Shown piece by piece: positions 49,759 through 64,000 of a DNA stretch of 64,000 nt. A model generated the notes under the pieces. The model made no database searches and was not told the DNA's origin. It saw only the letters and a program-made list of their open reading frames with translations. Origin of the DNA: Polynucleobacter acidiphobus (GTDB taxonomy: Bacteria; Pseudomonadota; Gammaproteobacteria; Burkholderiales; Burkholderiaceae); contig NZ_CP023277.1 in NCBI RefSeq assembly GCF_003065385.1, positions 1,580,564-1,644,563 on the forward strand. Reading direction: 5' to 3'. Both the position numbers and the translations under genes were made by a program. The first letter of the stretch is position 1, and each line of letters begins with the position of its first letter.

Positions 49759-50847
49759 TTATAGCGCTGGATAATCGGTATAACCCTTTTCATTGCCACC
49801 ATAGAATGTGGCGCGCTGATACGGATTTAACGGAGCATTTAGCTCAAAGCGTTTTGGCAAATCGGGATTGGCAATAAATAGCCTGCCAAATGCAATTGCA
49901 TCGGCCTCGCCATCGGCAATCGCTTTCTCAGCGCTGGCTTGGTCAAAGCCACCAGCCAACACCACCTTGCCAGTAAACAAAGAACGAAATAGCTGACCGG
50001 TACGCGGCGCATCAGCCACTAACTGATCATTACCCCCGGCAGTGGTTGCGCGCGGTTCAATTAAATGCAGATAGGAAAGATTGAATCGATTAAGTGCATT
50101 GATCAAATAGGCAAACAAAGCCTTCGGATCGGAATCAGCAATGTCGTTGAATGTGCCATAGGGCGACAAACGGATTCCAACACGACCACTACCCCATACC
50201 GGAATAATCGCCTCTAGTATTTCTAAGACTAATTTGCAGCGATTGGCAATCGAGCCGCCATATGCATCCGTTCGCTGATTCGTGCGATCTTGTAAAAACT
50301 GGTCCAACAAATAACCATTGGCTGCATGCAATTCAACGCCATCAAACCCAGCCGCTTTAGCCTGCTCGGCAGCGTGCACATAATCAGCTTTTAGTTTCTC
50401 AATTTCATCAAGCGTTAAGGCTCTTGGGGTTTCATACTCGGCCAAGGACCAAGATGCGGTATATACCTTGCCTGCGGGTTGAATGGCTGAGGGAGCGACC
50501 GGCAAGCCGTCATCTGGATGCAGTGAGGAATGAGAGATGCGCCCAACATGCCATAACTGCAAAACGATTTTGCCACCCCGCGCATGTACTGCATCGGTCA
50601 CTGTCCGCCACGCAGCCACTTGAGAGTCACTATAAATACCAGGGGTTGCAGGATAGCCTTTACCCAATGGTGAGATCTGTGTTGCTTCACTAATGATGAG
50701 GCCAGCAGAAGCACGCTGCGCATAGTACTCGGCTGCTAATGGTCCTGGTACGCCGTCATCACCCGCACGCATCCGGGTTAGTGGTGCCATCAAGATTCGG
50801 TTTTCAAGGGAGAGTAAGCCAAGCGTAACGGGAGTGAATAAATTCAT
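49759..50847 (-). CDS. nemA: Old Yellow Enzyme family alkene reductase
   Basis: A 362-residue FMN-dependent NAD(P)H oxidoreductase reducing activated C=C bonds and nitro compounds. Seen: LFTPVTLGLLSLENRILMAPLTRMRA, the His/Gly region LQLWHVGRISH, the paired residues in DGVELHAANGYLLDQFLQDRTNQRTDAYGGS, and GEADAIAFGRLFIANPDLP. The ATG at 50847 has AAGG six bases upstream. The gene symbol is by family; substrate is not known. Confidence 0.9.
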   Translation of the reverse strand: MNLFTPVTLGLLSLENRILMAPLTRMRAGDDGVPGPLAAEYYAQRASAGLIISEATQISPLGKGYPATPGIYSDSQVAAWRTVTDAVHARGGKIVLQLWHVGRISHSSLHPDDGLPVAPSAIQPAGKVYTASWSLAEYETPRALTLDEIEKLKADYVHAAEQAKAAGFDGVELHAANGYLLDQFLQDRTNQRTDAYGGSIANRCKLVLEILEAIIPVWGSGRVGIRLSPYGTFNDIADSDPKALFAYLINALNRFNLSYLHLIEPRATTAGGNDQLVADAPRTGQLFRSLFTGKVVLAGGFDQASAEKAIADGEADAIAFGRLFIANPDLPKRFELNAPLNPYQRATFYGGNEKGYTDYPAL

Positions 50848-50910
50848 TACCAACCTTTGTTAAGTTCCATGTAAAGTGTGGATTTTATAGGCTATCCATA
50901 TAAATTTCTG

Positions 50911-51111
50911 ATGACATCAACAGCAAAATTTCAGGCAGGCGACCAATTAATTCATCTCAAGTCAGGTGGACACTATCGCGTAATTGGATTAGGGAAGATA
51001 GAGGCTAATTTAGAAGATGTATACATCTATGAAGCGCTTCGCAACCATACCCTATGGGTTCGGCCTAAAGCTGAAATGGAAGATGGCCGCTTTGTAAAGC
51101 AACTCGGATGA
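50911..51111 (+). CDS. DUF1653 domain protein
   Basis: A 66-residue protein with the DUF1653 pattern: FQAGDQLIHLKSGGHYRVIGLG, VYIYEAL, LWVRPKAEMEDGRF. Function unknown. ATG 50911 fits the family; a GTG at 50878 would lengthen it. Divergent from nemA and 7 bp ahead of the next gene. Confidence 0.75.
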   Translation: MTSTAKFQAGDQLIHLKSGGHYRVIGLGKIEANLEDVYIYEALRNHTLWVRPKAEMEDGRFVKQLG

Positions 51112-51118
51112 CGATTCG

Positions 51119-51559
51119 ATGTTTTTAGAAGAACATGATTTACAAACATCCACCAAGATCGACACCTTGGAAGCAAAGTATCGAGAGATTGAAGCATTTA
51201 CACACCTACTATTTGCTGATATGGATGAGGCTGAACGGACCCAGCATGAAGCCATCAAGCGCCGCTTTGAAGAGCTCAAAGTGACTCTTTTTAAAAACTC
51301 AGACCATATCTTGAGTCAGGCCAAGCATCCCGATTCAGGGTATGCCCAAAAAGCATTGCGCGAGGCGCAACTTAATATGATGTTCGATTGGGAACAGTTT
51401 GGGCTTACAGAGGATATGTTTTTCAAGTTATATCAATGCCATCGCAATCAATTGATCGGCGATGCTGATCTGAAAATGCGAGCTGCTTTAATCGAACAAA
51501 TCTTAGCGATTGAGACTAACCTCACGCTGCTCTTCAAAATCCGGCAACTGACTTTATGA
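51119..51559 (+). CDS. Helical protein, unknown function
   Basis: A 146-residue, charged, mostly helical protein (IDTLEAKYREIEAFTHLLFADMDEAE ... IKRRFEELKVTLFKN) with likely coiled-coil character and no signal peptide. It lies between the DUF1653 gene and an orphan modA, overlapping the latter by 4 bp (ATGA). Not recognised. Confidence 0.65.
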   Translation: MFLEEHDLQTSTKIDTLEAKYREIEAFTHLLFADMDEAERTQHEAIKRRFEELKVTLFKNSDHILSQAKHPDSGYAQKALREAQLNMMFDWEQFGLTEDMFFKLYQCHRNQLIGDADLKMRAALIEQILAIETNLTLLFKIRQLTL

Positions 51560-52305
51560 TTCCAAAACTCCTACTCATTCTCTTTTGTTCGTTCTTTGTA
51601 GGACTTGCACATGCTCAAGCGACATTTGTCGTCGTCGCAGCCAATATGAAAGACGCATTTATTGAGATCCAGAATCAGTTCCAGAAGGAAAACAAGGGTG
51701 AATTAAAAGTCATCTATGGCTCTTCGGGCAACTTTGCCTCACAAATCATGAACGGCGCCCCGTTTCACTTATTTATCTCTGCAGACGAGCAATATCCTCT
51801 TGAGCTATTTAAAAAGGGGAAAACGGTCAATGAGGGCACTGTTTATGCGATTGGAAAATTAGCGCTGATTGCCAATAAAGGTAAAGGCATTACTCTTGAT
51901 GACTCTAAAGACAAAACTGCAGATGCCATTAAGAGGGCTAACAAGATTGCTCTAGCAAAGCCCGAACTTGCCCCCTATGGTCGGGCCAGTGTTGAGTATT
52001 TGAAAGCCAGTAATTTATGGGAACTGGCGAACTCGAAGATTGTGTATGCCGACAATATTGCGATGGCAGCGATGTTTGTAACGACAGGCTCTGCTGACAT
52101 CGGCTTTACGGCCCTGTCGATTGCCAAATCACCATCCGTTGCCAAACAGATCTCCTCTATTGAACTAACCGACGGCTATCAGCCAATTAAACAACGGATG
52201 GTGCTCATTAAAAATCCCACCCCTGACGCAATACGGCTCTACGAGTTTATGCAATCCCCTAAGACCAAAGAAATATTACGTTCGTTTGGATATCAAACCC
52301 CATAA
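51556..52305 (+). CDS. modA: Molybdate-binding periplasmic protein (ModA-like)
   Basis: A 249-residue solute-binding protein. Signal peptide about 1-21 (LLLILFCSFFVGLAHAQ), then FVVVAANMKDAFIEI, IYGSSGNFASQIMNGAPFHLFISADEQY, and PELAPYGRASVEYL, all typical of ModA. Oxyanion ligands are expected at the Ser/Gly loops. No modB or modC is adjacent, so it is an orphan binding protein or uses a transporter encoded elsewhere. Confidence 0.87.
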   Translation: MIPKLLLILFCSFFVGLAHAQATFVVVAANMKDAFIEIQNQFQKENKGELKVIYGSSGNFASQIMNGAPFHLFISADEQYPLELFKKGKTVNEGTVYAIGKLALIANKGKGITLDDSKDKTADAIKRANKIALAKPELAPYGRASVEYLKASNLWELANSKIVYADNIAMAAMFVTTGSADIGFTALSIAKSPSVAKQISSIELTDGYQPIKQRMVLIKNPTPDAIRLYEFMQSPKTKEILRSFGYQTP

Positions 52306-52393
52306 CCAAAGCCCCTAAATCATTAGGGCTACCCTAACTGTGAATTCATGATTAACTAGTGCGGTGAACACTGGCAATAAAGGCAAACCCCGA

Positions 52394-52936
52394 ATGCGAT
52401 TTCTTTTGTTCTTATTTCTTCAGTTGGGCATGATCACTCTAGTGCATGCGAATACCTCTTTGGTGGATTCGGTCAAATCAAAGGTTGAAACGATTTGGAC
52501 TCAAGGCGATGTAGTTGGGTATTTGCCTTTGTATACCTACCATATGCCCTACGCTTATCCTCCAGAAAAGCTAGATCAATACACCGATATTCCACTGGGA
52601 CTAGGGATTGGTAAGGGCCTATATAACAATCGCGGCAATTGGGAGGGTCTCTATGCCATGACCTTCAGAGACTCCCATGGCGTTTATCAATACATGGCGG
52701 GCTATGGCTGGATCCCAACCTGGAACTTGTCTTCCAATGGAAATTGGAGGGTGGGCGCAGGAGCAACGGTATTTATGATGTCACGCAAAGATATTTTTAA
52801 TTACATCCCCTTCCCTGGCTTGCTCCCCGTCGGTTCACTCGGGTATAAAAATCTCAGCCTTCAAACCTCATTTGTGCCCGGTGGCGATGGTTTTGGTAAT
52901 GTCCTTTTTACATGGGCAAAATGGACTTTTAAGTAA
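52394..52936 (+). CDS. pagP: Lipid A palmitoyltransferase
   Basis: An outer-membrane beta-barrel enzyme that moves palmitate from phospholipid to lipid A. The catalytic triad is in place: His50 (YTYHMPYAY), Asp93 and Ser94 (FRDSHG). Other matches to E. coli PagP are NWEGLYAM, AGYGWIPTW, NYIPFPGLLPVGSLGY, and the end GNVLFTWAKWTF. The 180-residue form from ATG 52394 has a signal peptide; a GTG at 52364 is possible. It lies 11 bp before an outer-membrane protein gene. Confidence 0.9.
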   Translation: MRFLLFLFLQLGMITLVHANTSLVDSVKSKVETIWTQGDVVGYLPLYTYHMPYAYPPEKLDQYTDIPLGLGIGKGLYNNRGNWEGLYAMTFRDSHGVYQYMAGYGWIPTWNLSSNGNWRVGAGATVFMMSRKDIFNYIPFPGLLPVGSLGYKNLSLQTSFVPGGDGFGNVLFTWAKWTFK

Positions 52937-52947
52937 GATAGCTATCA

Positions 52948-53871
52948 ATGCTCAGATACCTAGCCCTCTTTGCTGGCTTTGTCCTCTTTAGTGGGTTCAG
53001 CCCCCTCTCTTTGGCCCAGCCCGCCGGTATTGCTCAAAGTCCTGGACTGAAAGCGTCTGTCAGCGTAGTTGGCATTAATCAATTTAATACCAACCTTAAT
53101 TCTGGGGGTAGCTTTGGTTGGTCTTATGCCAGCGCATCACTCGGACTTCTAAACAATGTCTCTCCAGTCACTACGGTTGGCGTGTCATTACGCTATGAAA
53201 CCGAGTTTTGGAACTGGAGCAATATGCAGGCCTATAGCTTGGGGGGTAAAAATCCTTGGGGTACGATCCAAAGCCCTGGTATCAGCTTTGTGTACTCTCA
53301 TAAATTCGATTCGGATTGGAAGCTCAATTTAATACCAACCATCGAGTCGACTGCTGAACAAGGTGCCGAGCTCGGTAACTCATTAACCTATGGCGCGATT
53401 GTGAATGCCTCCAAGCAGCTATCGCCTACTCTCAATCTCGGTTTAGGTACGGGAGTCTTTCGCCAAATTGATACCAACCGTATTTTTCCTTTCATTGTGA
53501 TTGATTGGAAAATTACCGACCGTTGGAATCTTAATAATCCATTTCCTGGCGGCCCTGCTGGTGGTGCAGGCCTAGAACTGAGTTATGCGGTCACTCCACA
53601 ATTTAAGATATCAGGTGGTGCAGCTTATCGCAGTTACCGTTTTCGTCTGAGTAACTCAAGTGCCTATGCTGGCGGCGTCGGACAAAATAAATTTGTTCCC
53701 ATCTTTGCACGATTCTCATACGCATTTGATCGAACCACTTTGCTTGATCTTTATACAATTGCGAACGTTGGGGGCAGCGTTTCAGCAATTGATTCAAGTG
53801 GTAATACCGTACTAAGCACTAATTACAAAACAGCCCCTGCCATTGCCTTGAGTCTAGTGAAGCGCTTCTGA
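52948..53871 (+). CDS. Outer-membrane beta-barrel protein (DUF6268-like)
   Basis: A 307-residue protein with a signal peptide ending SLAQ and many alternating beta strands ending in aromatic residues, closing with LSLVKRF (C-terminal Phe). This is typical of outer-membrane barrels inserted by BAM. The DUF6268 assignment is tentative. Probably co-transcribed with pagP. Confidence 0.7.
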   Translation: MLRYLALFAGFVLFSGFSPLSLAQPAGIAQSPGLKASVSVVGINQFNTNLNSGGSFGWSYASASLGLLNNVSPVTTVGVSLRYETEFWNWSNMQAYSLGGKNPWGTIQSPGISFVYSHKFDSDWKLNLIPTIESTAEQGAELGNSLTYGAIVNASKQLSPTLNLGLGTGVFRQIDTNRIFPFIVIDWKITDRWNLNNPFPGGPAGGAGLELSYAVTPQFKISGGAAYRSYRFRLSNSSAYAGGVGQNKFVPIFARFSYAFDRTTLLDLYTIANVGGSVSAIDSSGNTVLSTNYKTAPAIALSLVKRF

Positions 53872-54005
53872 TTTTTATGCTTTTCTAAGACAAAGTCTTA
53901 TAAAATCTATATATTTCCTTCCTTAAGATTGACTTTCCAGAAAGTAAGGCTCATTAATGTATCGATTGATTACTGTAGTACGTTTTTGATCCTTTGTAAT
54001 CTACT

Positions 54006-54905
54006 ATGGTCACACAAAAAATCAATAATTTCTTTTATATATCGTTTTTTCTTTTGCTTTTGTTTAACGGTAATTTTGTTTATGCAGTACAAGAGCCGCC
54101 AGGCTCTCAGAGTGTTGAGGAAGCAATAGCCGCTGAAAAGAAACAGTCAGCCGATAATGCGGCTAAGTATCAGTCGACGTACCAAAATTATGCGGTAAAG
54201 CCTCATGAAACAGCAATTATTTTGATGCATGGCAAATGGGGTAGACCTCCCGCACCACTTCATTCTAATTTTGAAGTCGAACGGTTTTATGTTGTATCAC
54301 CCCTTATGCCCTGGTCTGGGGTTAGTGCGTATGACAAAACGTATGAGAGTGCGCTCGCTGATGTCAATAAACTAGTTCTCAAACTTCGTGCAGACGGATT
54401 CAAAAAAGTAATTATTGGCGGACAAAGTTTTGGTGCAAACGGCGCCCTGGCCTATGCCGCTGTATACGCAGATGTCGATGGACTATTACTATTTGCACCA
54501 GGTCACAATCCTGATATTGATAGAAACAATCAACCTGGATTAGTTTCAGATGCTAGAAAAAATATTAAAGACGGTAAACCCGAACAGCTGATTACCTTTT
54601 CTGATTTCAATGATGGTGGACGCTATCGAGCCATAGAGGCTAGATCAGATGTCTTTTATTCATTTTTTAACGAAGATGGACTTGCCAATATGCAAGAATC
54701 TGCAAAGAAAGTGAAGAAGCCTATTCCCACAATCGTTTTTATGGGAAGTGATGATTTCATTACAAGAAAAGGCAGTGGCTATTTTTTTGACAGATTGCCC
54801 AAGCATGAAATGAGTAAATATCGAGTTAGTCGAGCAGCTCATCGAGAGGTCCCACTGGCATCATTCGATGAGTCTCTAAATTGGGTCAAGGGTTTACTCA
54901 AATAA
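54006..54905 (+). CDS. Secreted alpha/beta hydrolase
   Basis: A 299-residue protein with a signal peptide (about 1-27) and an alpha/beta-hydrolase core. The nucleophile elbow is GGQSFGANGA with Ser141, the HG motif is IILMHGKWG, an acid is likely in FMGSDDF, and the catalytic His is probably in RAAHREVP near the C-terminus. Substrate unknown. The DNA is more AT-rich than the genes to its left, which may mark an acquired segment. Confidence 0.78.
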   Translation: MVTQKINNFFYISFFLLLLFNGNFVYAVQEPPGSQSVEEAIAAEKKQSADNAAKYQSTYQNYAVKPHETAIILMHGKWGRPPAPLHSNFEVERFYVVSPLMPWSGVSAYDKTYESALADVNKLVLKLRADGFKKVIIGGQSFGANGALAYAAVYADVDGLLLFAPGHNPDIDRNNQPGLVSDARKNIKDGKPEQLITFSDFNDGGRYRAIEARSDVFYSFFNEDGLANMQESAKKVKKPIPTIVFMGSDDFITRKGSGYFFDRLPKHEMSKYRVSRAAHREVPLASFDESLNWVKGLLK

Positions 54906-54984
54906 ATATATTGTGGGAGTTTTTTGAGATTACCAATCATCAACTCGAAGCTTTTTGAAAATTCTTAATCGTTTTAACGATAAA

Positions 54985-55250
54985 TTATTCGTAATGAGTC
55001 CACATCCTCAAAATACGAACAGTCTTCTCTTTACGAAAAACCTCGTAAACTAAACGATGTTGAATATTGATTCTGCGAGAATAAGCACCCTTTAAAGCCC
55101 CCACCAACTTTTCGTATGGCGGCGGATTTTGAAACGGATCTACTTCTAATGGATCAAATAAAGTTTGTGCTTTATCTCCAAATCCAGCGGCTGAGAGTTT
55201 TTTGCATCCTTTGGGGCAAACTTGGAATAGACTGAATTCCAAGTTACCAC
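54985..55250 (-). pseudogene. yoeB: YoeB/Txe-type toxin gene, split by a -1 frame change
   Basis: YoeB toxins cleave mRNA at the ribosome. The C-terminal 70 residues match the family (PFQNPPPYEKLVGALKGAYSRRINIQHRLVYEV ... MWTHYE, with the catalytic Arg/His region). The family-like N-terminus, WNSVYSKFAPKDAK, lies in the next frame. It begins at a GTG at 55250 overlapping the antitoxin stop codon (GTGGTAA). The frames meet at a run of six A (55203-55198), in phase as A AAA AAC. Without frameshifting the product ends after about 33 codons. It may be a pseudogene, a sequencing error, or a case of programmed frameshifting. Confidence 0.75.
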
Positions 55251-55486
55251 TTTAATGTCCTCTTACTCTTGGCCAAAGGCTCGGCCATGGATTCCTTAAT
55301 AGACTCACGCATTCCTGGAATAGCTAATAGGTATAGTGTTTCCTGAATTACACTCCAGTCTTCTTCAGAAATTAATACGGCATTACTGCGCTTACCTGAA
55401 ATAAGCACTGGCTTATGTGTTTCTGCAGTTTGATCAATTAAGCGATATAAACCTGCTCGCGCTTCACTTGCGGTTAATGTGGTCAT
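55244..55486 (-). CDS. yefM: YefM/Phd-type antitoxin
   Basis: An 80-residue antitoxin. N-terminal TLTASEARAGLYRLIDQTAETHKPVLISGKRSNAVLISEEDWSVIQETLYLL matches the YefM DNA-binding domain; the C-terminal tail should wrap the toxin. It is upstream of, and overlaps, the true toxin start. It likely autoregulates through the inverted repeat at 55509-55524. Confidence 0.9.
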   Translation of the reverse strand: MTTLTASEARAGLYRLIDQTAETHKPVLISGKRSNAVLISEEDWSVIQETLYLLAIPGMRESIKESMAEPLAKSKRTLKW

Positions 55487-55508
55487 GATTTAACCCCTTT
55501 CTAGCTTA

Positions 55509-55524
55509 GTACGCAAAAGCGTAC
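55509..55524 (-). promoter_or_regulatory. Candidate operator of the toxin-antitoxin pair
   Basis: GTACGC AAAA GCGTAC is a perfect inverted repeat 22 bp before the antitoxin ATG, the expected place for autoregulation by a YefM-YoeB complex. Confidence 0.55.
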
Positions 55525-55608
55525 GCTTTGTCAATCGATCAATTGTGATTCTTGTTAACCCGGGGCGGGATCAACCATAGCTGAGGATGTCTGACTCTAA
55601 CTCTAGAC

Positions 55609-55625
55609 TGTCGTTTAAAACGACA
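55609..55625. repeat. Copy 1 of TGTCGTTT/AAACGACA near-palindrome
   Basis: TGTCGTTTAAAACGACA: two 8-bp arms with one central A. Related copies lie at 57252-57268 and 59251-59268. It sits in the 230-bp gap between the antitoxin and panE genes. Confidence 0.75.
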
Positions 55626-55720
55626 AATTCCATAACCTCACGAATGGGATATTCCTATGGTTAAGCTTGGCTGGGGCTGAGTAGACTAGAGCCAAAGACT
55701 TTAATTCTTTGATTTCTAGG

Positions 55721-56635
55721 CTAGGATCCCTTCATTTGTTTAACCGCAATCTGCGTATAAGCCATTTTGAGCAACTGACACCTCACACCACTTTTCTCAC
55801 CCTTGATAATCATTTTTCCCAAGATATGATCATGTTCGGTCTTTTGACCTGAAATTAAATCCCTCAACATCGAAGCAGTAAATAGTGAGCCCACTTTCGT
55901 CAGCATCTCAATTGCTTTGCTTCTGGGCACCTCTCCGATGGCATGACCAGCAGCTTTAGCAATTGAGCAGCATTCTTCATACATCGCTAACGTTAATTCT
56001 TTGCCGTAGGGAGTTGAAACAATTTCACCCACCGAACCACGACACAATGTTGTCATGCCAGCTAAGGTGGCTAGGAAAACCCATTTATCCCATAACACTT
56101 GCTCAATGTTTTCGCTGTAAGCACTATCGAAATCTGCCATTTTACAAAGCGCAATAAATTCTTTAGTCAAGGCTTCATGATCTGGAGCCCGTGGCCCCAC
56201 GGTCAACATATTCAGATCGGTCAATTGCTTGACAGCACCTTTATCTGTGATCATGGCCGCAATATGCGCCACACCGCCCATGACTCTGGCTTTACCGAAT
56301 TGTTGATCCAGAGCCTCCATATGAGAAAGCCCATTTAAAAATGGTAGTAATACTCCTTGGGTGCTTGCTTTGGTTAGCGACTTTAACGATTCATCCAAAT
56401 CAAATGCTTTAGGCGCCAAAATGATCAAATCATAGATTGGTTCCAGCTGACCAGCTGTCACCGCTTTGGGATGAACTGTAAAACTACCTTTAGGGGTTTC
56501 AATGGTCAGCCCGTGCGCCTGAATTAACTGATGGCGTTTATCTCGAAGTAAAAAAGTAATGTCTGCGCCAGCATTGATTAACTTAGCTCCAAAGAAGCCA
56601 CCAATGCCACCAGCACCAACAATTAATATCTTCAT
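55721..56635 (-). CDS. panE: 2-dehydropantoate 2-reductase
   Basis: Reduces ketopantoate to pantoate with NADPH, in pantothenate/CoA synthesis. The 304-residue protein has MKILIVGAGGIGGFFGAKL, the catalytic Lys region VLWDKWVFLATLAGMTTLCR, and a C-terminal helical part with a conserved SM.RDL element. Paralogues of the family act on other 2-oxoacids, so the substrate is a family-level call. Confidence 0.88.
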   Translation of the reverse strand: MKILIVGAGGIGGFFGAKLINAGADITFLLRDKRHQLIQAHGLTIETPKGSFTVHPKAVTAGQLEPIYDLIILAPKAFDLDESLKSLTKASTQGVLLPFLNGLSHMEALDQQFGKARVMGGVAHIAAMITDKGAVKQLTDLNMLTVGPRAPDHEALTKEFIALCKMADFDSAYSENIEQVLWDKWVFLATLAGMTTLCRGSVGEIVSTPYGKELTLAMYEECCSIAKAAGHAIGEVPRSKAIEMLTKVGSLFTASMLRDLISGQKTEHDHILGKMIIKGEKSGVRCQLLKMAYTQIAVKQMKGS

Positions 56636-56702
56636 TGTGTAACCTTGTCTTAAAAAATTTATTTACCTAATTCAGTAAAGATTTTGTAAGCAAGAGCTTA
56701 TT

Positions 56703-57197
56703 CTACCTTACTGCTACTAGGTCTGCCGAGCCGATATACTCCTTGAACTGCTTACACCATATCAGTACGCTGTTGACATCCTCAGGGTTTTGGGTCTTAA
56801 GGAGATAGAAAGCGGCTCCGTTAGGTTTTTTGATACGGCTGATCTCAATTTGCTGGGCACTGAACTCATCGTTATCTTTGATAGCGGGCTTACTGCTAAT
56901 GTAGATATGATAGTCTGGACCAGGGCTGGATCTAAAGTCTTCGCCAGATTGTAAAAATAGTTGATTGCCAACTTTGACTAAGGTCCACTCGCCAGAAGAG
57001 TTGTGTATCAAATCTTGGCCCTTGGCATTTTTATCAATCTGCCCTCGTTTAAGGATCTCACCTTCTACTTTTTGATTACTCTCAAAGCGTGACTTGATAT
57101 CTTGTGCGTGACCACGGATCGCGTCAAGAAGCTGAGCGCTTGCTGATATTGGGAGCAGAAGTGAAATAACGAGTAGCAAAAAACCAATTTTATTCAT
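56703..57197 (-). CDS. Secreted DM13-domain protein
   Basis: A 164-residue protein with signal peptide NKIGFLLLVISLLLPISASAQ and a DM13 domain: NSSGEWTLVKVGNQLFLQSGEDFRSSPGPDYHIYIS, and the late conserved Cys in SVLIWCKQFKEYIGSADL. DM13 domains are proposed to carry electrons through that Cys. ATG 57197 starts the signal peptide; ATG 57218 is possible. Confidence 0.8.
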   Translation of the reverse strand: MNKIGFLLLVISLLLPISASAQLLDAIRGHAQDIKSRFESNQKVEGEILKRGQIDKNAKGQDLIHNSSGEWTLVKVGNQLFLQSGEDFRSSPGPDYHIYISSKPAIKDNDEFSAQQIEISRIKKPNGAAFYLLKTQNPEDVNSVLIWCKQFKEYIGSADLVAVR

Positions 57198-57251
57198 GAA
57201 GAATTTAATAGTTGTCATGTAATTGGTATCAATATAGATCTTTTAGATAAA

Positions 57252-57268
57252 TGTCGTTTAAAACGTCA
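57252..57268. repeat. Copy 2 of TGTCGTTT/AAACGACA near-palindrome
   Basis: TGTCGTTTAAAACGTCA differs from copy 1 at a single base. It lies between the DM13 gene and the next membrane-protein gene. Confidence 0.7.
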
Positions 57269-57288
57269 GTTTTTATATAGGGATTTGA

Positions 57289-57663
57289 CTAATTTTCAAC
57301 AACATCAAATACCTTACCTCGAATTATCCGGAAGATTAGATACAAAGTTATCAGATGTAGCACCGCCACAAGTAAATTGCTAATCACCACAGGATTTGTA
57401 AAGCTGCCCACTGTAAACGGCGTCGTTAATTTATAGAGTACTTGAACTAGTAACAATGGCGCTACCAGTAATGGCAGTGGCCTGAACAAAAGTAGAATTG
57501 AGACTAAGAGTATTGCTCCATAAACCGACAGGAGAATTCCTCTAGCCGGACTGTAAGATCCATAAACACTTGAAATCCGAGGTAAATCCCACATAAGACC
57601 CATACAGACTGGTATTAAAACCAACACATTGACCAGCAGGGAAATTAAAATCATCCTCTTCAC
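57289..57663 (-). CDS. Membrane protein, unknown function
   Basis: A 124-residue protein with about four hydrophobic segments (MILISLLVNVLVLIPVCMGLMW; GILLSVYGAILLVSILLLF; LLVAPLLLVQVLYKL; ISNLLVAVLHLITLYLIFRII). GTG 57663 has AAGGAG eight bases upstream; another GTG lies three codons earlier. Not recognised. Confidence 0.65.
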   Translation of the reverse strand: MKRMILISLLVNVLVLIPVCMGLMWDLPRISSVYGSYSPARGILLSVYGAILLVSILLLFRPLPLLVAPLLLVQVLYKLTTPFTVGSFTNPVVISNLLVAVLHLITLYLIFRIIRGKVFDVVEN

Positions 57664-57793
57664 AAATTCCACTCCTTTATGGGTAGATGATAAAGGGAGT
57701 CCCTAGCCACAACGGTTTGAGCCGTCAGACAGAGTCAGCCACAGCCGGCACATTCACACAGCACCACAGTCAATTTGCTACAATTCTTAGTTC

Positions 57794-57832
57794 GGCGAAT
57801 TAGCTCAGCTGGTTAGAGCGACGGAATCATAA
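57794..57832 (+). pseudogene. 5' half of a tRNA-Met-like gene, interrupted in the anticodon loop
   Basis: Positions 57794-57832 hold the acceptor 5' strand GGCGAAT, the D-arm GCTCAGCTGGTTAGAGC, the 5' anticodon stem and the loop ATCATAA with anticodon CAT (57828-57830). The expected 3' anticodon strand (about TCCG), T-arm and ATTCGCC-ACCA end do not follow; unrelated DNA starts at 57833. A TACAAT box upstream suggests an intact promoter. It could be Met or Ile2 by anticodon, but the sequence resembles elongator tRNA-Met. Confidence 0.8.
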
Positions 57833-57840
57833 CGATGATT
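57825..57840. mobile_element. Likely left attachment junction of an island
   Basis: AATCAT AACG ATGATT is an inverted repeat straddling the point where tRNA sequence ends. Such symmetry around a few central bases is what tyrosine recombinases use. The right junction is not in the window. Confidence 0.5.
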
Positions 57841-58037
57841 TTGAGTAATGAAACAGTTTTACAACATTGGTTTAAGCATACGCTCACTGTGTTGTTCGAT
57901 TCGCACCACTCAACACGGCTCTCACTAATTTAAAACATATTTGCAGTAGCGTTCGCAGAACATCGTGTGAGATTTTGACAACGACGTAGCGGTTAATCGT
58001 CGCAGAAAATTTCTAACGACAGCACACTACGCTGTGT

Positions 58038-59249
58038 ATGAATGACCTTCGGTTTATTTTCACCACAACCACCGAAAAAATACCCTCATCCCTAAAACTC
58101 TTTGACGGCAAACTCACTGTCTATAAGCGTTCGCAGTCCGCGCAATGGCAATGTCGTTTTAAGCTTAGTAATGGCAAATGGCACAGTGCGAGCTGTGCGA
58201 CTACTGATTTAAATGCAGCACAACAACAAGCAGTGGTGCTGTATGAGACTGTTAAACTCAAAGTGGATGCGGGTTTAGCGATTCACACGAAAACATTTGG
58301 ACAGATTGCACGTGAAGAAATTACACGCTTAGCACGAGTAGCGACGACCCGACAGAGTGAGCGCAAATACAAAGACTATTTGTTTATATACGAAAAATAC
58401 CTCATTCCGTTTTTTGGCAGCTACGCAGTCGCTGATATTAATGATGAAGTAGTTGCCGAGTTCAGTGCGTGGCGTTTAGCTGAGATGGGAAAAGATGCAA
58501 AAGCAATTACAAAGAAACATCACGCAATGGCATTTAATCGAATTGTGCAGATTGCACGTGAGCGTGGGTATGTGTCTGCAAATAAAGTCATTCCCCAATT
58601 AGACATTAGTGGCGCAAAGAGCGAACCACGTCCTGCGTTTAGCAGTGAAGAGATAACACAACTCTATGCCTATATGCCACTGTGGCAAAAAGATGTAATT
58701 CACAAAGACTCAGAAGCAGCACGTATTTTATGCACTGCATATGTAAAGTTTTTAGTCAATACGGGTGTGCGCCACAGCACCGAATCGATGCCACTGCGGT
58801 GGAAGCACTTACAGTGGCACTATATCGGTAGTAAGCGTTATCTGCGAATATGGGTGAGCGGCAAAACAGGCGCACGTTATCTAATTGCAAAACACGAAGT
58901 CATTAGCGTATTAGAAGAGCTACTTAAGTGGCAACAATTACCGTATCGCACCTTAGATGAAATCATTAAAGCAAAGTTAGATAGACGTATCTTCACGCTT
59001 CCTACCGGCGAGATGCCGCACCTACTCGAAAATATCTTTCGACACTTAATGATTAAAAGCGGATTACAAAAGAATGCTGCGGGACAGAATCGAACCTTAT
59101 ACAGCTTACGGCATACCTATGCAACGGAAGCGTTAGCAAAAGGAATTGATATCCACACATTAGCGAAACAAATGGGAACGAGTGTGGTGATGATTGAAAA
59201 ACACTACAGCAAACTAACGGCAATGATGAGTGCGGAGCGATTGGCTTAA
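58038..59249 (+). CDS. Tyrosine recombinase (island integrase)
   Basis: A 403-residue integrase. It has an N-terminal arm-binding-like region (VYKRSQSAQWQCRFKLSNGKWHSAS), a SAM-like core-binding domain (about 95-200), and a C-terminal catalytic domain with Arg245 (NTGVRHSTESMPL), a Lys in SGKTGARY, Arg358 in YSLRHTYATEA, and the nucleophile Tyr390 in EKHYSKL. It points away from the interrupted tRNA and likely drove insertion there. Codon use is AT-rich compared with the left part of the window. Confidence 0.9.
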   Translation: MNDLRFIFTTTTEKIPSSLKLFDGKLTVYKRSQSAQWQCRFKLSNGKWHSASCATTDLNAAQQQAVVLYETVKLKVDAGLAIHTKTFGQIAREEITRLARVATTRQSERKYKDYLFIYEKYLIPFFGSYAVADINDEVVAEFSAWRLAEMGKDAKAITKKHHAMAFNRIVQIARERGYVSANKVIPQLDISGAKSEPRPAFSSEEITQLYAYMPLWQKDVIHKDSEAARILCTAYVKFLVNTGVRHSTESMPLRWKHLQWHYIGSKRYLRIWVSGKTGARYLIAKHEVISVLEELLKWQQLPYRTLDEIIKAKLDRRIFTLPTGEMPHLLENIFRHLMIKSGLQKNAAGQNRTLYSLRHTYATEALAKGIDIHTLAKQMGTSVVMIEKHYSKLTAMMSAERLA

Positions 59250-59250
59250 A

Positions 59251-59268
59251 TGTCGTTTTGAAACGACT
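59251..59268. repeat. Copy 3 of TGTCGTTT/AAACGACA near-palindrome
   Basis: TGTCGTTTTGAAACGACT has the same arms with a slightly longer centre. It lies right after the integrase stop codon and may act as a hairpin there. Confidence 0.65.
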
Positions 59269-59274
59269 TTTCAT

Positions 59275-59652
59275 TCACTTACTGCGACCCAAGTTGGGGG
59301 GGGGGGGGGAATTTAAAACCGTATCCGCATATTGCGTAAAACCCGAAATCACTTTAATTAATTTATCGGTGGGCTCGATGTATTTCACTCGCGCATCCAC
59401 ATCATCACTGCGATGTTTAATCCACTCCTCTTTTAATAGTCGTTTGTAATGATGCCGAATGGCAGTGTAGCTATGCGGCAAGGAGGAGAATAAAGACTTT
59501 ACTGTATAAGTTTGATTTGTTTTATATGCAATAACTATCTGCAATAGTAAGTCATATGCTACCAATGAATTAGCAATGGGCAATAACTTCTTATCACAAC
59601 CTCGTAATAAAAAAAGCTTCGAAATAATTTCAGTTTCTTTATCCACAAACAA
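59275..59652 (-). CDS. Winged-helix (MarR-like) protein with a 14-C tract
   Basis: A protein of up to 125 residues with a MarR-like helix-turn-helix and wing: YTVKSLFSSLPHSYTAIRHHYKRLLKEEWIKHRSDDVDARVKYIEPTDKLIKVI. It is a likely transcription factor of the island. The start is TTG 59652 or GTG 59646; neither has a ribosome binding site. The last codons run through 14 C (G at 59296-59309), encoding SPPPP; slippage would change the C-terminus. Convergent with the integrase. Confidence 0.68.
   Translation of the reverse strand: MFVDKETEIISKLFLLRGCDKKLLPIANSLVAYDLLLQIVIAYKTNQTYTVKSLFSSLPHSYTAIRHHYKRLLKEEWIKHRSDDVDARVKYIEPTDKLIKVISGFTQYADTVLNSPPPPNLGRSK
59296..59309. repeat. Homopolymer of 14 G
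   Basis: Fourteen consecutive G on the plus strand, inside the 3' end of the winged-helix gene. Very unusual in this AT-rich segment and prone to slippage in replication and sequencing. Confidence 0.9.
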
Positions 59653-59787
59653 TTCATTTTTTTATAAGTTTTATAACTATATGTTCAGTTATAAACATAA
59701 GCAACTAAACAAACATTTAAATTAAACATTTGTTTTTGCTGTTTGTTCATTTGTAAATTTAATTACAAAAAGCAACAATACATTGCT
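59653..59787. promoter_or_regulatory. AT-rich divergent control region
   Basis: This region separates the winged-helix gene from the envelope genes. It contains repeated TTATAA elements and an inverted pair AAACAAA ... TTTGTTT (about 59707-59735). It is a likely operator region for the winged-helix protein, by position only. Confidence 0.35.
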
Positions 59788-59949
59788 ATGGATAGCAATG
59801 AATACACAGAAAAAGAGCTTTTGTATTACAAAACTCGCTTTCTTCAAAAAATTAGCAAAAGCTTAAAACTGACCAATGCTCTATTAGCATTCTTCGCAGT
59901 TTTGTATCTTTGCCAATTAGTATTTCCACTCTTTGTTAGTAGTAATTAA
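59788..59949 (+). CDS. Small single-pass membrane protein (53 residues)
   Basis: From ATG 59788 the product has an acidic/basic N-terminus (MDSNEYTEKELLYYKTRFLQKISK) and one hydrophobic helix (LTNALLAFFAVLYLCQLVFPLFV). An earlier in-frame start at 59743 would add 15 residues. Its stop lies just before the next gene's ATG at 59951, so they are likely coupled. Not recognised. Confidence 0.55.
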   Translation: MDSNEYTEKELLYYKTRFLQKISKSLKLTNALLAFFAVLYLCQLVFPLFVSSN

Positions 59950-59950
59950 T

Positions 59951-61063
59951 ATGCAAACACAAGATACACAAGCAAATCAAGCTGAAGAAATCAGTATTGA
60001 AGATATCGCTAATTTTATTAAGGAAGAGTTTTGGAAAATTTCTATTTCAGGTTTATTAGGAATACTCTTGTCTCTGATATTGGGTTTTATTACAGCACAG
60101 TATCAAGCAAAATTAATTTATACAAATTACAGCGGCATTGACATACCGAGATTAAAGACTTTACAAGCATCGCTACCAAAACTATATGAAGAAGTTGAAA
60201 GGAATAATTCTCAAAATGATTTTTTAAAAAGTGAGAAAGTTTGGGAAACATCTGTTAAACCAAACATCTTAATAAAAAAAGCAGATGGCAAAGATTTATT
60301 AGATGTATCAGCTCTCACCAAAGCCTCAAACAGTATTCCAACAATCGAAATAATCGGATTTGGCACTACTAAAGCTAAAGCAATTCAGAATGTGGAAACA
60401 ATCAGTAATTTTTTTATAAATGGCTCTTCCTACCTTCAACTGCGTGATCTTATACGCAATTATGATTTGAGATCAATTGCTGTTGTTAGTAATGCACAAA
60501 AGAAAGTATCTGCTTTAGAAATTGAGTCTGTTTATTTAGAAAAACGAATTAAAAATCTAAATTCACTTAAAAATCAATTTCCCAATGCTATCAATGCAGG
60601 CAGTCAAGTAGTTGATGCAAAAGATAGTGGAGCAAAGTATCTTCCAATATCGACTCAAATTATTGCAGCAACTACAGATTTAAATGGGATACAGGAACAA
60701 TTAGCACGACTTAGGGATGAAGAGTCGCAAGTTAAAGTCTATTCAAGCTTTGCAGATAGTGGTAAGAAGATATTGACGGAAACCTCTGACCCAAAACAAT
60801 TAATTGATAAGCTACTAATAGTTATCGAAGGTATTCAAAAGTCAATTCCCCCTTCAAATACTATTCAGGTTAATGCAGCAGAATCGATTAGAGTTGATTT
60901 GAAATCAATTCAAACCGATAACCTATATGGATTACGTCAAATTGGTCAGATTGATGTTTCGAGTCCTAAATATGTCAAATATATAGGTATTGGCTTATTC
61001 GGTGGGCTAATGTTTGGCTTTATGCTCAGCATAGCACTTCGATTCAAATCGAAATTTTTCTAA
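59951..61063 (+). CDS. Wzz-like two-helix membrane protein
   Basis: A 370-residue protein with a cytoplasmic N-terminus, a first helix ISGLLGILLSLILGFITA (about 34-52), a large helical periplasmic part rich in coiled coil (VSALEIESVYLEKRIKNLNSLKNQ; DLNGIQEQLARLRDEESQVKV), and a C-terminal helix YIGIGLFGGLMFGFMLSIALRF. This topology matches polysaccharide co-polymerases (Wzz family), though no strong Wzz motif is evident. The neighbours are all envelope proteins. Confidence 0.65.
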   Translation: MQTQDTQANQAEEISIEDIANFIKEEFWKISISGLLGILLSLILGFITAQYQAKLIYTNYSGIDIPRLKTLQASLPKLYEEVERNNSQNDFLKSEKVWETSVKPNILIKKADGKDLLDVSALTKASNSIPTIEIIGFGTTKAKAIQNVETISNFFINGSSYLQLRDLIRNYDLRSIAVVSNAQKKVSALEIESVYLEKRIKNLNSLKNQFPNAINAGSQVVDAKDSGAKYLPISTQIIAATTDLNGIQEQLARLRDEESQVKVYSSFADSGKKILTETSDPKQLIDKLLIVIEGIQKSIPPSNTIQVNAAESIRVDLKSIQTDNLYGLRQIGQIDVSSPKYVKYIGIGLFGGLMFGFMLSIALRFKSKFF

Positions 61064-61066
61064 ATT

Positions 61067-61882
61067 ATGTCTGTGTCAATAAAGCGTTTCTTTTCAGCTT
61101 TACTATTTTTTCTGTTTTCATACTCTGCATACTCTCAAACACAACCCACGAATTTTGCAGCTAAATTTGAATATGACTTAAAGTTAAGTGTGGATGCAAA
61201 TAAGCGTGCAGCTTATTTAAAGAAAAACAACGAACAACCAAGTGCTTATGAAAAAGTCTTTACTGTGCTTACAGGAACAGTTCAGGTTGCGAATATTGTG
61301 GATGACGTTAAATTTACCCAAAACTCTTATCAAATCACATCGATTGGAAATCTCATTGCAGGTCTATCAACTGCACTTGGAGGACAGCGTTTAGTTAGAG
61401 AATCAATTGGCACTATTAGCGCAAGTGGGCTGCTTTCCTCTGTGTATCAAGAAAAGCGTGGCAATACGGATTTATTAATTAGCCGTTATGAGCCTCCTAA
61501 AAAATCAATTACTTTTTTTAAAGCTTCTTTTCGCAACCCTATTAACTCTACTACCTTAGAAGGGCAGCTTATTGATTTAGTGAATGTAGGCTATCAATTT
61601 ATCGGTCGCCCTCTTCCCACCAAACCAATCACTTATCAAGTAAGTGATGCACGCTCAGTAAAACGCTATACCCTAATACCCGCTGAAGTTTGGGAATTTC
61701 CAATCGACGGTAAAAAAATTAAAGCGACACGGTTTTATAAGACGACGTCTAAAGAGGATACCAATACGTTTGAAATTTGGTTTTCGGAAGGAAAAAATTT
61801 TCCAATACGCTCTGTTATTGGACTTAGCGAGCAATACGGCGCAACGATTCAAGTTGATTTGAAGAAATTACCAAATTTATAA
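61067..61882 (+). CDS. Secreted DUF3108-like protein
   Basis: A 271-residue protein with a signal peptide (FFSALLFFLFSYSAYSQ) and a beta-rich body. The pattern ... ISASGLLSSVYQEKRGN ... YTLIPAEVWEFPIDGKKIKATRFY ... FEIWFSEGKNFPIRSVIGLSEQYGATIQVDL resembles DUF3108 periplasmic proteins. It starts 3 bp after the Wzz-like gene. Confidence 0.65.
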   Translation: MSVSIKRFFSALLFFLFSYSAYSQTQPTNFAAKFEYDLKLSVDANKRAAYLKKNNEQPSAYEKVFTVLTGTVQVANIVDDVKFTQNSYQITSIGNLIAGLSTALGGQRLVRESIGTISASGLLSSVYQEKRGNTDLLISRYEPPKKSITFFKASFRNPINSTTLEGQLIDLVNVGYQFIGRPLPTKPITYQVSDARSVKRYTLIPAEVWEFPIDGKKIKATRFYKTTSKEDTNTFEIWFSEGKNFPIRSVIGLSEQYGATIQVDLKKLPNL

Positions 61883-61884
61883 CG

Positions 61885-62124
61885 ATGCAACGCAATTCTT
61901 TAATCGTAATGATTTCAATTTTAGCCATTTGCTTTGTTTTGCTAACACTTATTTTTCAAAACATCTGCACTCCCACTAAAAATGTTGTTGCGAACTCTGC
62001 GAACGCATTGATTGAGACTGTTATTCCACAACCTATAAATAATCAGAAGCAATCCGACCCATTAAGTTATGAAGGCGTAAAACGTGTGATTGTGAAATGG
62101 GTTTCGCAATACTGCGCTAAGTAA
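61885..62124 (+). CDS. Small membrane-anchored or secreted protein
   Basis: A 79-residue protein with one N-terminal hydrophobic helix (LIVMISILAICFVLLTLIF) and a polar tail ending VKRVIVKWVSQYCAK. It starts 2 bp after the preceding stop codon, in the same run. Not recognised. Confidence 0.6.
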   Translation: MQRNSLIVMISILAICFVLLTLIFQNICTPTKNVVANSANALIETVIPQPINNQKQSDPLSYEGVKRVIVKWVSQYCAK

Positions 62125-62139
62125 TAGAGTTGAATTATT

Positions 62140-62268
62140 ATGCTTAAAAAAGCGTTTCTTCACTTATTCTTAACCCTATTTTATGCTGTAGGTTCTGTTT
62201 TCTTAATATTTGGCAATATCTTTATTCATCTATCTGAAAAAATTCTCACTTACTTAGATAAAAAGTAA
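62140..62268 (+). CDS. Small membrane protein (42 residues)
   Basis: A 43-codon frame. After MLKKAF the product is almost entirely one hydrophobic stretch (HLFLTLFYAVGSVFLIFGNIFIHL), ending EKILTYLDKK. It follows the previous gene by 15 bp and ends 1 bp before the convergent recombinase gene. Weak ribosome binding site. Confidence 0.45.
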   Translation: MLKKAFLHLFLTLFYAVGSVFLIFGNIFIHLSEKILTYLDKK

Positions 62269-62269
62269 T

Positions 62270-62845
62270 CTACACCAACTCCACAGCCCTACGCTTCATC
62301 TCATCATTCACGTCAATATACGCCTGCGTCGTCATAATACTGCGATGTCCTGCTAAGCTCATTAACACACGCACACCGATACCCTTATTCGCTAAGTTTG
62401 TAATAAACGTGCGTCTGCCACTGTGGCTACTTGCGCCGTCAATGCCCACACGCTTATACAGATAGTGGAAGAACTGCGTTAAGGTATTAGCACTAAAACC
62501 GTCGCTATTGGCTTTCTGACTATAAAACAGCTTTTGATTGAGATTAGTGGGTATGTATCTACGGCAATAAAGCTCTAACTCTTTACGCAGTCGCTCATTC
62601 ACAAACACGATACGTGAGTGATTGCCTTTCGTTTGTGTAGCTGAGAGTCGTATTTCTGCTTTTACGACGCCACTGCCGTCGACTACATCGCCGTATGTGA
62701 GGCTCGCTACCTCACCCACACGCATTCCACTTAAAAACGTGGTCATTACGATTGCCCGATTACGTGCTGCGTGTTTGCGAGTAGTGACGTAGTCTAATAC
62801 GCGTCGCAGTTCCGTTTGCGTTAGTGTCTTTGCTTGCTTACTCAT
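62270..62845 (-). CDS. Short tyrosine recombinase (FimB/FimE-sized)
   Basis: A 191-residue, catalytic-domain-only recombinase with a complete active site: Arg42 (SGMRVGE), Lys73 (TQTKGNH), His141 and Arg144 (HSGRR), His167 (AGHRS), Tyr176 (QAYID). It lacks the N-terminal DNA-binding domain of the integrase at 58038. FimB/FimE-type enzymes of this size often invert promoter segments; this one may also assist element movement. Palindromic ATTACTTAAGTAAT lies 27 bp upstream of its ATG. Confidence 0.88.
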   Translation of the reverse strand: MSKQAKTLTQTELRRVLDYVTTRKHAARNRAIVMTTFLSGMRVGEVASLTYGDVVDGSGVVKAEIRLSATQTKGNHSRIVFVNERLRKELELYCRRYIPTNLNQKLFYSQKANSDGFSANTLTQFFHYLYKRVGIDGASSHSGRRTFITNLANKGIGVRVLMSLAGHRSIMTTQAYIDVNDEMKRRAVELV

Positions 62846-63723
62846 TCTCTATTTCTCCTCTAAATCTAAGCATTACTTAAGTAATACTATGTATTCTTTG
62901 TTTGTTAATTCCTACCTCTTTTTGTCTGCTGTTTGTGCAATAAATTTCTTTCCACAAAACAATGAGATAGCAGCAGTAGCATTACAGATATAACAAAATT
63001 AGTATTTCCTTATATTGGTTTATTTAGTGCAGCACCAATTGATTACTTCAGTTTTGTAGTCAAAAAGCCACATTCACAGCTGAGTATTTTTTAGCTTCAC
63101 TGCATAGTGTTCTGTGTCGTTAATACAAAGACACGTGAAGATAGCTAAAACGTGCTTATTTGACGTTTTTGACGTATTTAAAGAGTGGTTTTGTAAGTGC
63201 AGTGTTTGATGAGTAATGAAGCAAACTGCGTTTGCTTGTGCTTTCACAAAAGCTTCGCTTTTGCTCAGCACGTTTTTTCTTTGTTTTCTTTTTTTCTTAT
63301 TTCATTTGTTTGATGGATTGCTTATTTGATTACTTAAGTGAGAAGTAATAAAGAGATATAGAACAATATTGATTTTAATGATTACACTGGTTTTTGAGCA
63401 AAGAACGGCTATACGCATACTCTTTAAAGTATTCGTTTAGTCGTCCTTACTAATGAACTTCACCATTACTGGTTTCGTCGCATAGTCCTGTAATACAGTT
63501 TTACGTAAGACAATCGTATTAAAACTTACAACTCACTGCTGCATTGATTTGCATTGTGAGCAACTGTGCGGCACTTACTTATTACTGTCGTTTGCTATTA
63601 CAGCAGCAAACGACTAAGTGCAGACGCATTAGCCGTCATATTCCAATCTGCGTTTTTGTCCTTTTTTAGTGCAGTGACTTATCTGCGTGTATTGCCTATT
63701 TTTGCCTATTCTTCTTACTGTGT
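62846..63723. other. Gene-poor AT-rich island DNA
   Basis: About 880 bp without a convincing gene. It holds the ATTACTTAAGT repeats and clustered hairpins near 63220-63275 (AAGCAAAC/GTTTGCTT; AAAAGC/GCTTTT nested in GTGCT/AGCAC). T-rich DNA follows, so transcription may end there. Short frames exist but look random. Confidence 0.5.
62872..62885. repeat. Perfect palindrome ATTACTTAAGTAAT
   Basis: A 14-bp palindrome upstream of the short recombinase gene. An 11-bp copy, ATTACTTAAGT, recurs at 63329-63339. It could be an operator or recombinase site. Confidence 0.6.
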
Positions 63724-63999
63724 TTATTTAGGTGTTTGTCGATTTGCCTTAATTTTTCTACGTGCTTTTTTAGTATGTCGATTTGCCTTAAATTCTGCTC
63801 GTTTTAGTTTTTTGCCTAAATTCATTACTTCATACGTTTGGCGCTTTGTAATACTGCTGCGCTTTTGAGTGTGATTAGCGCAATAGTAAAAGTCCATTAA
63901 TGTGTCTTTTTGCGCTTCACTTAATAGCTCAATTTTGTGCTTTAGTAAGTAAAACGCGGTCTTTTGCGCTTGTAATAGCCATATGTCCGTTTTTTCAAA
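63724..63999 (-). CDS. Partial gene at the right edge, unknown function
   Basis: On the minus strand a frame stays open for 91 codons from the window edge to a stop at 63724. The product is charged and helical (WLLQAQKTAFYLLKHKIELL ... NLGKKLKRAEFKANRHTKKARRK) and ends with a strongly basic tail, suggesting nucleic-acid binding. Its start lies beyond 64000. It is preferred over the antisense frame at 63566-63868, whose product is a Phe/Leu-rich string typical of a shadow. Confidence 0.5.
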   Translation of the reverse strand, partial: FEKTDIWLLQAQKTAFYLLKHKIELLSEAQKDTLMDFYYCANHTQKRSSITKRQTYEVMNLGKKLKRAEFKANRHTKKARRKIKANRQTPK

Positions 64000-64000
64000 C

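Follow-up and report, generated by a model that had tools for sequence, protein, structure and literature searches.

The window analysed here is a 64,000-bp stretch of the Polynucleobacter acidiphobus genome (G000; other G and L numbers denote compared genomes and loci, and C1 denotes the contig) and spans G000:C1:1580564-1644563 on a single contig of 1,851,737 bp. The host gene modA (51556..52305, forward strand; TIGR01256, 175.6 bits) is followed by extra DNA (52306-57793) and then by a displaced 5' half of the elongator tRNA-Met(CAT) gene (57794..57832, forward strand), which constitutes the left end of an island. The half is identical to nt 1-39 of the intact gene of the same genome at 39 of 39 positions. 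This identity includes 5 nt upstream and breaks off directly after the anticodon loop. With an E value of ~2e-12 within 14 kb, the match is not a chance one. The ORF of a 403-residue tyrosine integrase (int; 58038..59249, forward strand; PF00589, 30.4 bits against a cut-off of 27.1; phrog_1 integrase, E 3e-27) starts 205 bp further on, between the half and the intact gene. The first-pass annotation had described a half tRNA with a CAT anticodon that ends at 57832, a recombinase 205 bp beyond it and a split in the anticodon loop by a recombinase-bearing island, and these descriptions are borne out. Neither ARAGORN nor Rfam at its gathering threshold reports a tRNA in the window.

The island body occupies the rest of the window (57833..64000) and continues to window-equivalent position 67347, 9,515 bp from 57833, where it passes into the rebuilt tRNA-Met gene. 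Its G+C content is 39.5%, versus 47.7% for window positions 1-52000. In addition to int, the island encodes a second, short tyrosine recombinase of 191 residues (62270..62845, reverse strand; PF00589, 98.4 bits), which recurs in the G039, G023 and G008 islands at 54-62% identity, and a DUF6641 protein that is common to related islands. Domain matches also reveal a two-ORF transposase, which we take to be of IS3 make-up. The cargo further contains winged-helix-like and Wzz-like ORFs, both below the Pfam cut-offs, and MarR-like and MASE1-like ORFs, likewise below cut-off. Close to where the winged-helix-like ORF (59275-59652) ends, 14 consecutive G residues (59296-59309) may reflect a variable tract or a weakness of the sequencing. 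No phage structural family is found among the island ORFs scanned (ten with Pfam and six with PHROGs, part of the island being masked). The integrase has no match among 50,697 phage records, and an IMG/VR search sensitive to close relatives only yields two contigs with matches of just 40 and 23 residues. Scans of phage and viral records reveal no excised circle or phage form of the island.

The intact tRNA-Met gene and the tRNA complement

Is the elongator tRNA-Met gene of G000 broken? A genome-wide search for the first 26 nt of the tRNA with up to two mismatches finds two places only: the half itself and, 9,515 bp further right, a second copy. The right-hand copy is a complete and contiguous tRNA-Met gene (ARAGORN; RF00005, 67 bits) on the same strand at G000:C1:1647872-1647948 (window-equivalent 67309-67385), and the window ends 3.3 kb before it. 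The two island ends share an exact 44-bp direct repeat that consists of AGTTC and tRNA nt 1-39, with its left copy at 57789..57832 (forward strand) and its right copy outside the window at L003:9868-9911 (window-equivalent 67304-67347). The intact gene contradicts the earlier statement that the tRNA is not restored. Rightward extension, as the first-pass annotation proposed, does find the predicted 3' half at the right end of the island behind the same TCATAA core; this half is already joined to an island-borne 5' half.

RF00005 has 39 matches in the G000 genome, and ARAGORN calls a tRNA at 38 of them. The 39th match (L102, G000:C1:108613-108674) resembles, by eye, a tRNA-Thr(TGT) remnant. A count of the CAU tRNA genes, also proposed earlier, yields only one intact elongator tRNA-Met, at the island, with an initiator (~552689-552765) and a tRNA-Ile2 gene that contains a probable group I intron also present. 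RF00005, ARAGORN and a genus survey, in which the half and the intact gene account for both tRNA-Met matches of G000, reveal no second elongator gene. The intact gene is thus the only elongator tRNA-Met gene found in G000.

These observations bear on several other accounts of the half. If the insertion had disabled the gene, tRNA-Met would be supplied by another gene or by a whole tRNA carried by the element. The left copy is really only a half, as this account demands, but the complete gene at the right end and the failure to find a further elongator copy make such disablement, which had been suggested before, very improbable. Joining of the halves in trans or by intron splicing is less credible still: the split does lie in the anticodon loop, where such introns occur, and a probable group I intron does divide tRNA-Ile2 in this genome, but the window has no Rfam match at the gathering threshold and a split or intron-bearing tRNA would have no contiguous gene such as that at 1647872-1647948. 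The contiguous gene contradicts disablement, trans joining and an intron alike, including the earlier idea that the halves are joined some other way. Misassembly is just as implausible. The 44-bp repeats can mislead assemblers and the layout is odd, but it lies on a single contig of an assembly with 99.99% completeness and recurs in other genomes, public records included, and we reject this explanation as very improbable.

The tRNA-Ile2(CAT) locus of G000 lies behind rpoD (L140:4188-6789, G000:C1:389187-391788) and comprises a 5' half (nt 1-40), followed by a gene interrupted in its anticodon loop and, 2 kb further on, by a separate 3' half. The probable group I intron that splits the gene scores 35.6 bits against RF00028 (E 3.5e-6), below the curated cut-off of 50, and ARAGORN misses the gene. 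Similar splits are present in L166 and L167. The intron also breaks the integrase target and, as a speculation, might protect it. A literature search finds no report on Polynucleobacter group I introns, which is not proof of their absence.

Empty, occupied and apparently stacked sites

Relatives provide both states of the site. G069 represents the empty site, in which modA directly precedes the tRNA: one intact tRNA-Met gene lies ~40 bp beyond modA, the next gene is the one found downstream in G000 (80% protein identity), and no island is present. G063 represents an occupied site, in which modA directly precedes the 5' half; modA, ~40 bp and the half are followed by 9 kb of other DNA and then by an intact tRNA-Met gene, and no match to the G000 integrase exists within this unit. 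Other occupied sites include those of G008 and G039, and the island layout of G000 recurs with a related integrase in G008, G039 and G023. The displaced half of G023 (L116:13134-13198) carries internal tandem duplications.

We infer a recombination event from this layout. By tyrosine recombination, a mobile island would enter the sole elongator tRNA-Met gene in its anticodon-loop segment, using an attachment site that would bear a copy of the tRNA 5' half with promoter-like DNA ahead of it. The event would strand the original 5' half next to int at the left end, and at the right end the 5' half of the island and the 3' half of the host would together form a complete tRNA. The 5' half and the upstream DNA of the intact gene come with the island. 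The G000 unit would now be an apparent layer of an island stack whose own right end has been lost or exchanged. We are highly confident in this overall account, in which a mobile island sits in the anticodon-loop segment, has displaced the old half, has rebuilt the tRNA and appears to form one layer of a stack. The account is opposed by four loci of the integrase clade that have no tRNA half, by relatives at 39-42% identity that use tRNAs in another arrangement, by the lack of the clade's arm motif at the G000 right end, by the absence of a two-hexamer promoter and by the failure to find an excised form in phage and viral records.

The DNA around the half points to stacking. L159, a public MAG contig, encodes an integrase 94% identical to int. 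Within the extra DNA of G000, the segment 52308-53873 also stands before the leftmost half in L159, and the segment 53874-57793 is missing from L159 between the matching upstream genes and that half. The genes of the extra DNA (52364-57672) encode PagP (52364-52936), a YoeB/YefM-type toxin-antitoxin pair (54985-55486) and a PanE-like reductase (55721-56635). A stretch at 57727..57767 (forward strand) is 78-81% identical to the right ends of the G008, L162 and G039 islands and 79% identical to the G035 tRNA-Phe island, and is therefore probably the right arm of an older island. An interpretation of the DNA to the left of the half as plain host promoter was considered and rejected, because its match to G069 and G063 is limited to the final 14-15 nt, and the preceding stretch matches the related right ends. 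No further 5' half was found to the left of 57794, with only short chance matches in window positions 50001-64000 and none genome-wide (first 26 nt, up to two mismatches), so that 53874-57793 has no recognisable left end.

A motif picked after inspection of the sequences, ACAG(N3-9)CATT, provides a further clue. Among 13 left ends, 11 carry it at +20/+21 from the half (background 1.5%), G000 as ACAGTTTTACAACATT (57853..57868, forward strand), and it is a proposed integrase arm site. Of 13 right ends, 8 have the motif somewhere in the 170 bp that precede the rebuilt tRNA (background 2.9%). Its absence from the right end of G000 indicates that the unit now seen does not represent one clean insertion. 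The G000 right end is 98% identical to that of G063 over 180 bp, tRNA included, and the left end of G063 differs. In L159, the G000-type right end stands before, not after, the same integrase. Stacked islands with the loss or exchange of an end would explain the mismatched ends of G000. As one layer of such a stack, the present 9.5-kb unit may no longer excise.

Polarity of related islands

Among the 42 best-scoring integrase relatives (44-100% identity, with one at 41%), the longest tRNA match of each locus was counted; L047, L050 and L149 offer less than 230 bp upstream of the integrase. A 5' half on the same strand ends 164-211 bp upstream of the integrase in 13 of the 42 loci (tRNA-Met in four, tRNA-Phe in six and tRNA-Ile2 in three), including one Met half broken by duplications and one Phe half that ends at nt 31. 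The other 29 loci have no tRNA match within the scanned stretch, and the longest match is a 3' half at none of the 42. The far end is covered in 12 of the 13 half-bearing loci: ten have a contiguous intact tRNA on the same strand, one contig ends inside the tRNA and one locus has an intron-like split gene. In the tree, all 13 fall inside an 18-member clade (support 95/77). Its remaining five members are one locus with 109 bp of upstream sequence and four that lack a tRNA match. The Met users group together in one clade, as do the Ile2 users (100/100 for each), the Phe users form no single clade, and the sister group of 23 loci has no half. The clade of int thus leaves a 5' half 164-211 bp upstream of the integrase at three tRNA genes (Met, Phe and Ile2). 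The expectation of the first-pass annotation that users of the anticodon loop carry the matching 3' half is correct for most catalogued islands and incorrect for this clade.

Public loci, 20 of 28 of which were covered and which partly repeat genomes already sampled, have a 5' half near the integrase in 12 of 20 cases, one of them in a Methylophilaceae MAG. The remaining eight are all at most 62% identical to int. In L176, the 5' half is located at the far end; a whole tRNA-Lys precedes the integrase in L173 and L174, L175 has a tRNA-Phe 3' half, L177 has a whole tRNA-Phe with 3' pieces beyond, and L168, L169 and L178 have no tRNA match near the integrase. The relatives at 39-42% identity (L173-L175 and L177) are thus located at tRNAs in a 3' or other arrangement.

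The tRNA-Met survey covered 121 genomes of the genus, of which 115 have a match (one by cross-match only), and finds 16 5' fragments in 12 genomes and one 3' fragment in each of five genomes, with both kinds in G160. The count leaves out six internal matches of 84-85% (G078, two in G159, G177, G025 and G003), three of which overlap tRNA-Ile2 matches, and a tRNA truncated at a contig end (G152); the broken half of G023 and a degenerate half in G076 lie below its threshold. With 3' fragments starting at nt 29-32 and nt 39 as the last position of the commonest 5' fragment, the sequence shared by both kinds is confined to the surroundings of the anticodon loop. Both polarities also occur at the tRNA-Phe gene of G071 (L107:5156-18820), where two 5' halves precede the intact gene and a 3' half follows it.

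The combination of an intact tRNA, an upstream same-strand fragment, a tyrosine integrase between them and an empty site in G069 identifies the G000 island as a member of an already known type, the tRNA island with a 5' fragment. In Islander, this is the minority polarity, with 159 of 3,919 islands displacing a 5' fragment, and such islands likewise combine a tyrosine integrase, a crossover in the anticodon region and an intact tRNA opposite a fragment (PMC4383910). Unlike in that collection at large, one integrase clade here occupies three tRNA genes of one genus and carries promoter-like DNA along. In archaeal pTN3-type integrases, attB also lies in the tRNA 5' half and the restored tRNA is cut off from its original promoter, a separation that a review describes as seldom met in bacteria (PMC5495485, PMC8371274). 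pTN3 is archaeal, uses tRNA-Leu and disrupts its own integrase gene on integration, whereas int is intact and lies 205 bp from the half (PMC8371274, PMC5495485). Tyrosine integrases at needed, non-redundant tRNA genes are also described in a report on tRNA-dependent lysogeny; those phages, however, share ~10 bp with the gene, leave it unrebuilt and bring a whole tRNA, whereas a 39-nt half rebuilds tRNA-Met in G000 (PMC10865867). The common 3'-fragment islands at tRNA-Met in G014, G026, G071 and G006 use the same gene and the same anticodon-loop region, but displace the 3' half (from nt 29-32) and keep the upstream DNA. Title searches reveal no literature on these Polynucleobacter elements or on promoter-side tRNA fragments at such bacterial islands, which is not proof of absence.

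Upstream DNA and tRNA supply

The two ends of the G000 island differ in the DNA ahead of the tRNA sequence, sharing 32% of positions from -60 to -11. At -15, the displaced half has the -10-like box TACAAT (57779..57784, forward strand; box scan) and the rebuilt gene has TATAAT. A two-hexamer scan for consensus promoters reports none at either end, and promoter activity at these ends is accordingly something that we infer. All 13 right ends at Met and Phe have, at -15 or -16, a hexamer that agrees with TATAAT in at least five of six letters; the background in the 12-position window, which was chosen after inspection of the sequences, is 5.9%. A similar box is present at most left ends (8 of 9 Met and 4 of 4 Phe), which makes it a common tRNA promoter feature and not a mark of islands. 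The DNA ahead of the gene is whatever the island provides, and integration is therefore likely to exchange the promoter of the sole elongator tRNA-Met gene. The integrated and excised states could then differ in the tRNA promoter, not in the integrity of the tRNA. A switchable tRNA, whose expression excision and integration alter through such a promoter swap and not through gene breakage, would accord with the end repeats, the integrase and the differing upstream DNA. We regard it as unlikely in G000, given that the two ends appear not to belong together as a pair and that phage and viral scans find no excised form; a stacked layer remains our preferred account of this unit.

The tRNA-Ile2 islands have a different arrangement. 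rpoD precedes tRNA-Ile2 (NF004208 match in G000), and none of the four tRNA-Ile2 right ends has a TATAAT-like box beside the tRNA. All four have the island-borne, promoter-like box TTACAAT at -38 to -107. In three of them, the interval from this box to the tRNA holds a copy, 93-97% identical, of the 64-70 bp ahead of the host tRNA. The copied stretch opens at the ATG of the last 17 rpoD codons; this rpoD tail follows the box in L151, L152 and L164, and L165 has no tail. We read the tRNA-Ile2 islands as replacing the transcription context that integration would cut away. More broadly, and only tentatively, a Polynucleobacter integrase clade may be specialists that capture both the 5' half and the promoter of needed tRNA genes (Met, Phe and Ile2), with every arrival exchanging the promoter of a single-copy tRNA, with later arrivals stacking and replacing the promoter again and with tRNA-Ile2 islands standing in for the lost rpoD operon with a promoter and the last rpoD codons. 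We judge this broader proposal somewhat improbable; if it is true, the host could depend on, or be regulated through, island promoters.

The present analysis removes an apparent broken tRNA gene and demonstrates that the edge of a window is able to create one. It also uncovers a natural experiment, in which one tRNA gene receives islands of opposite polarity at one anticodon loop in sister species. One polarity keeps the upstream DNA and the other replaces it, and thus the effect of island promoters on tRNA supply becomes testable.
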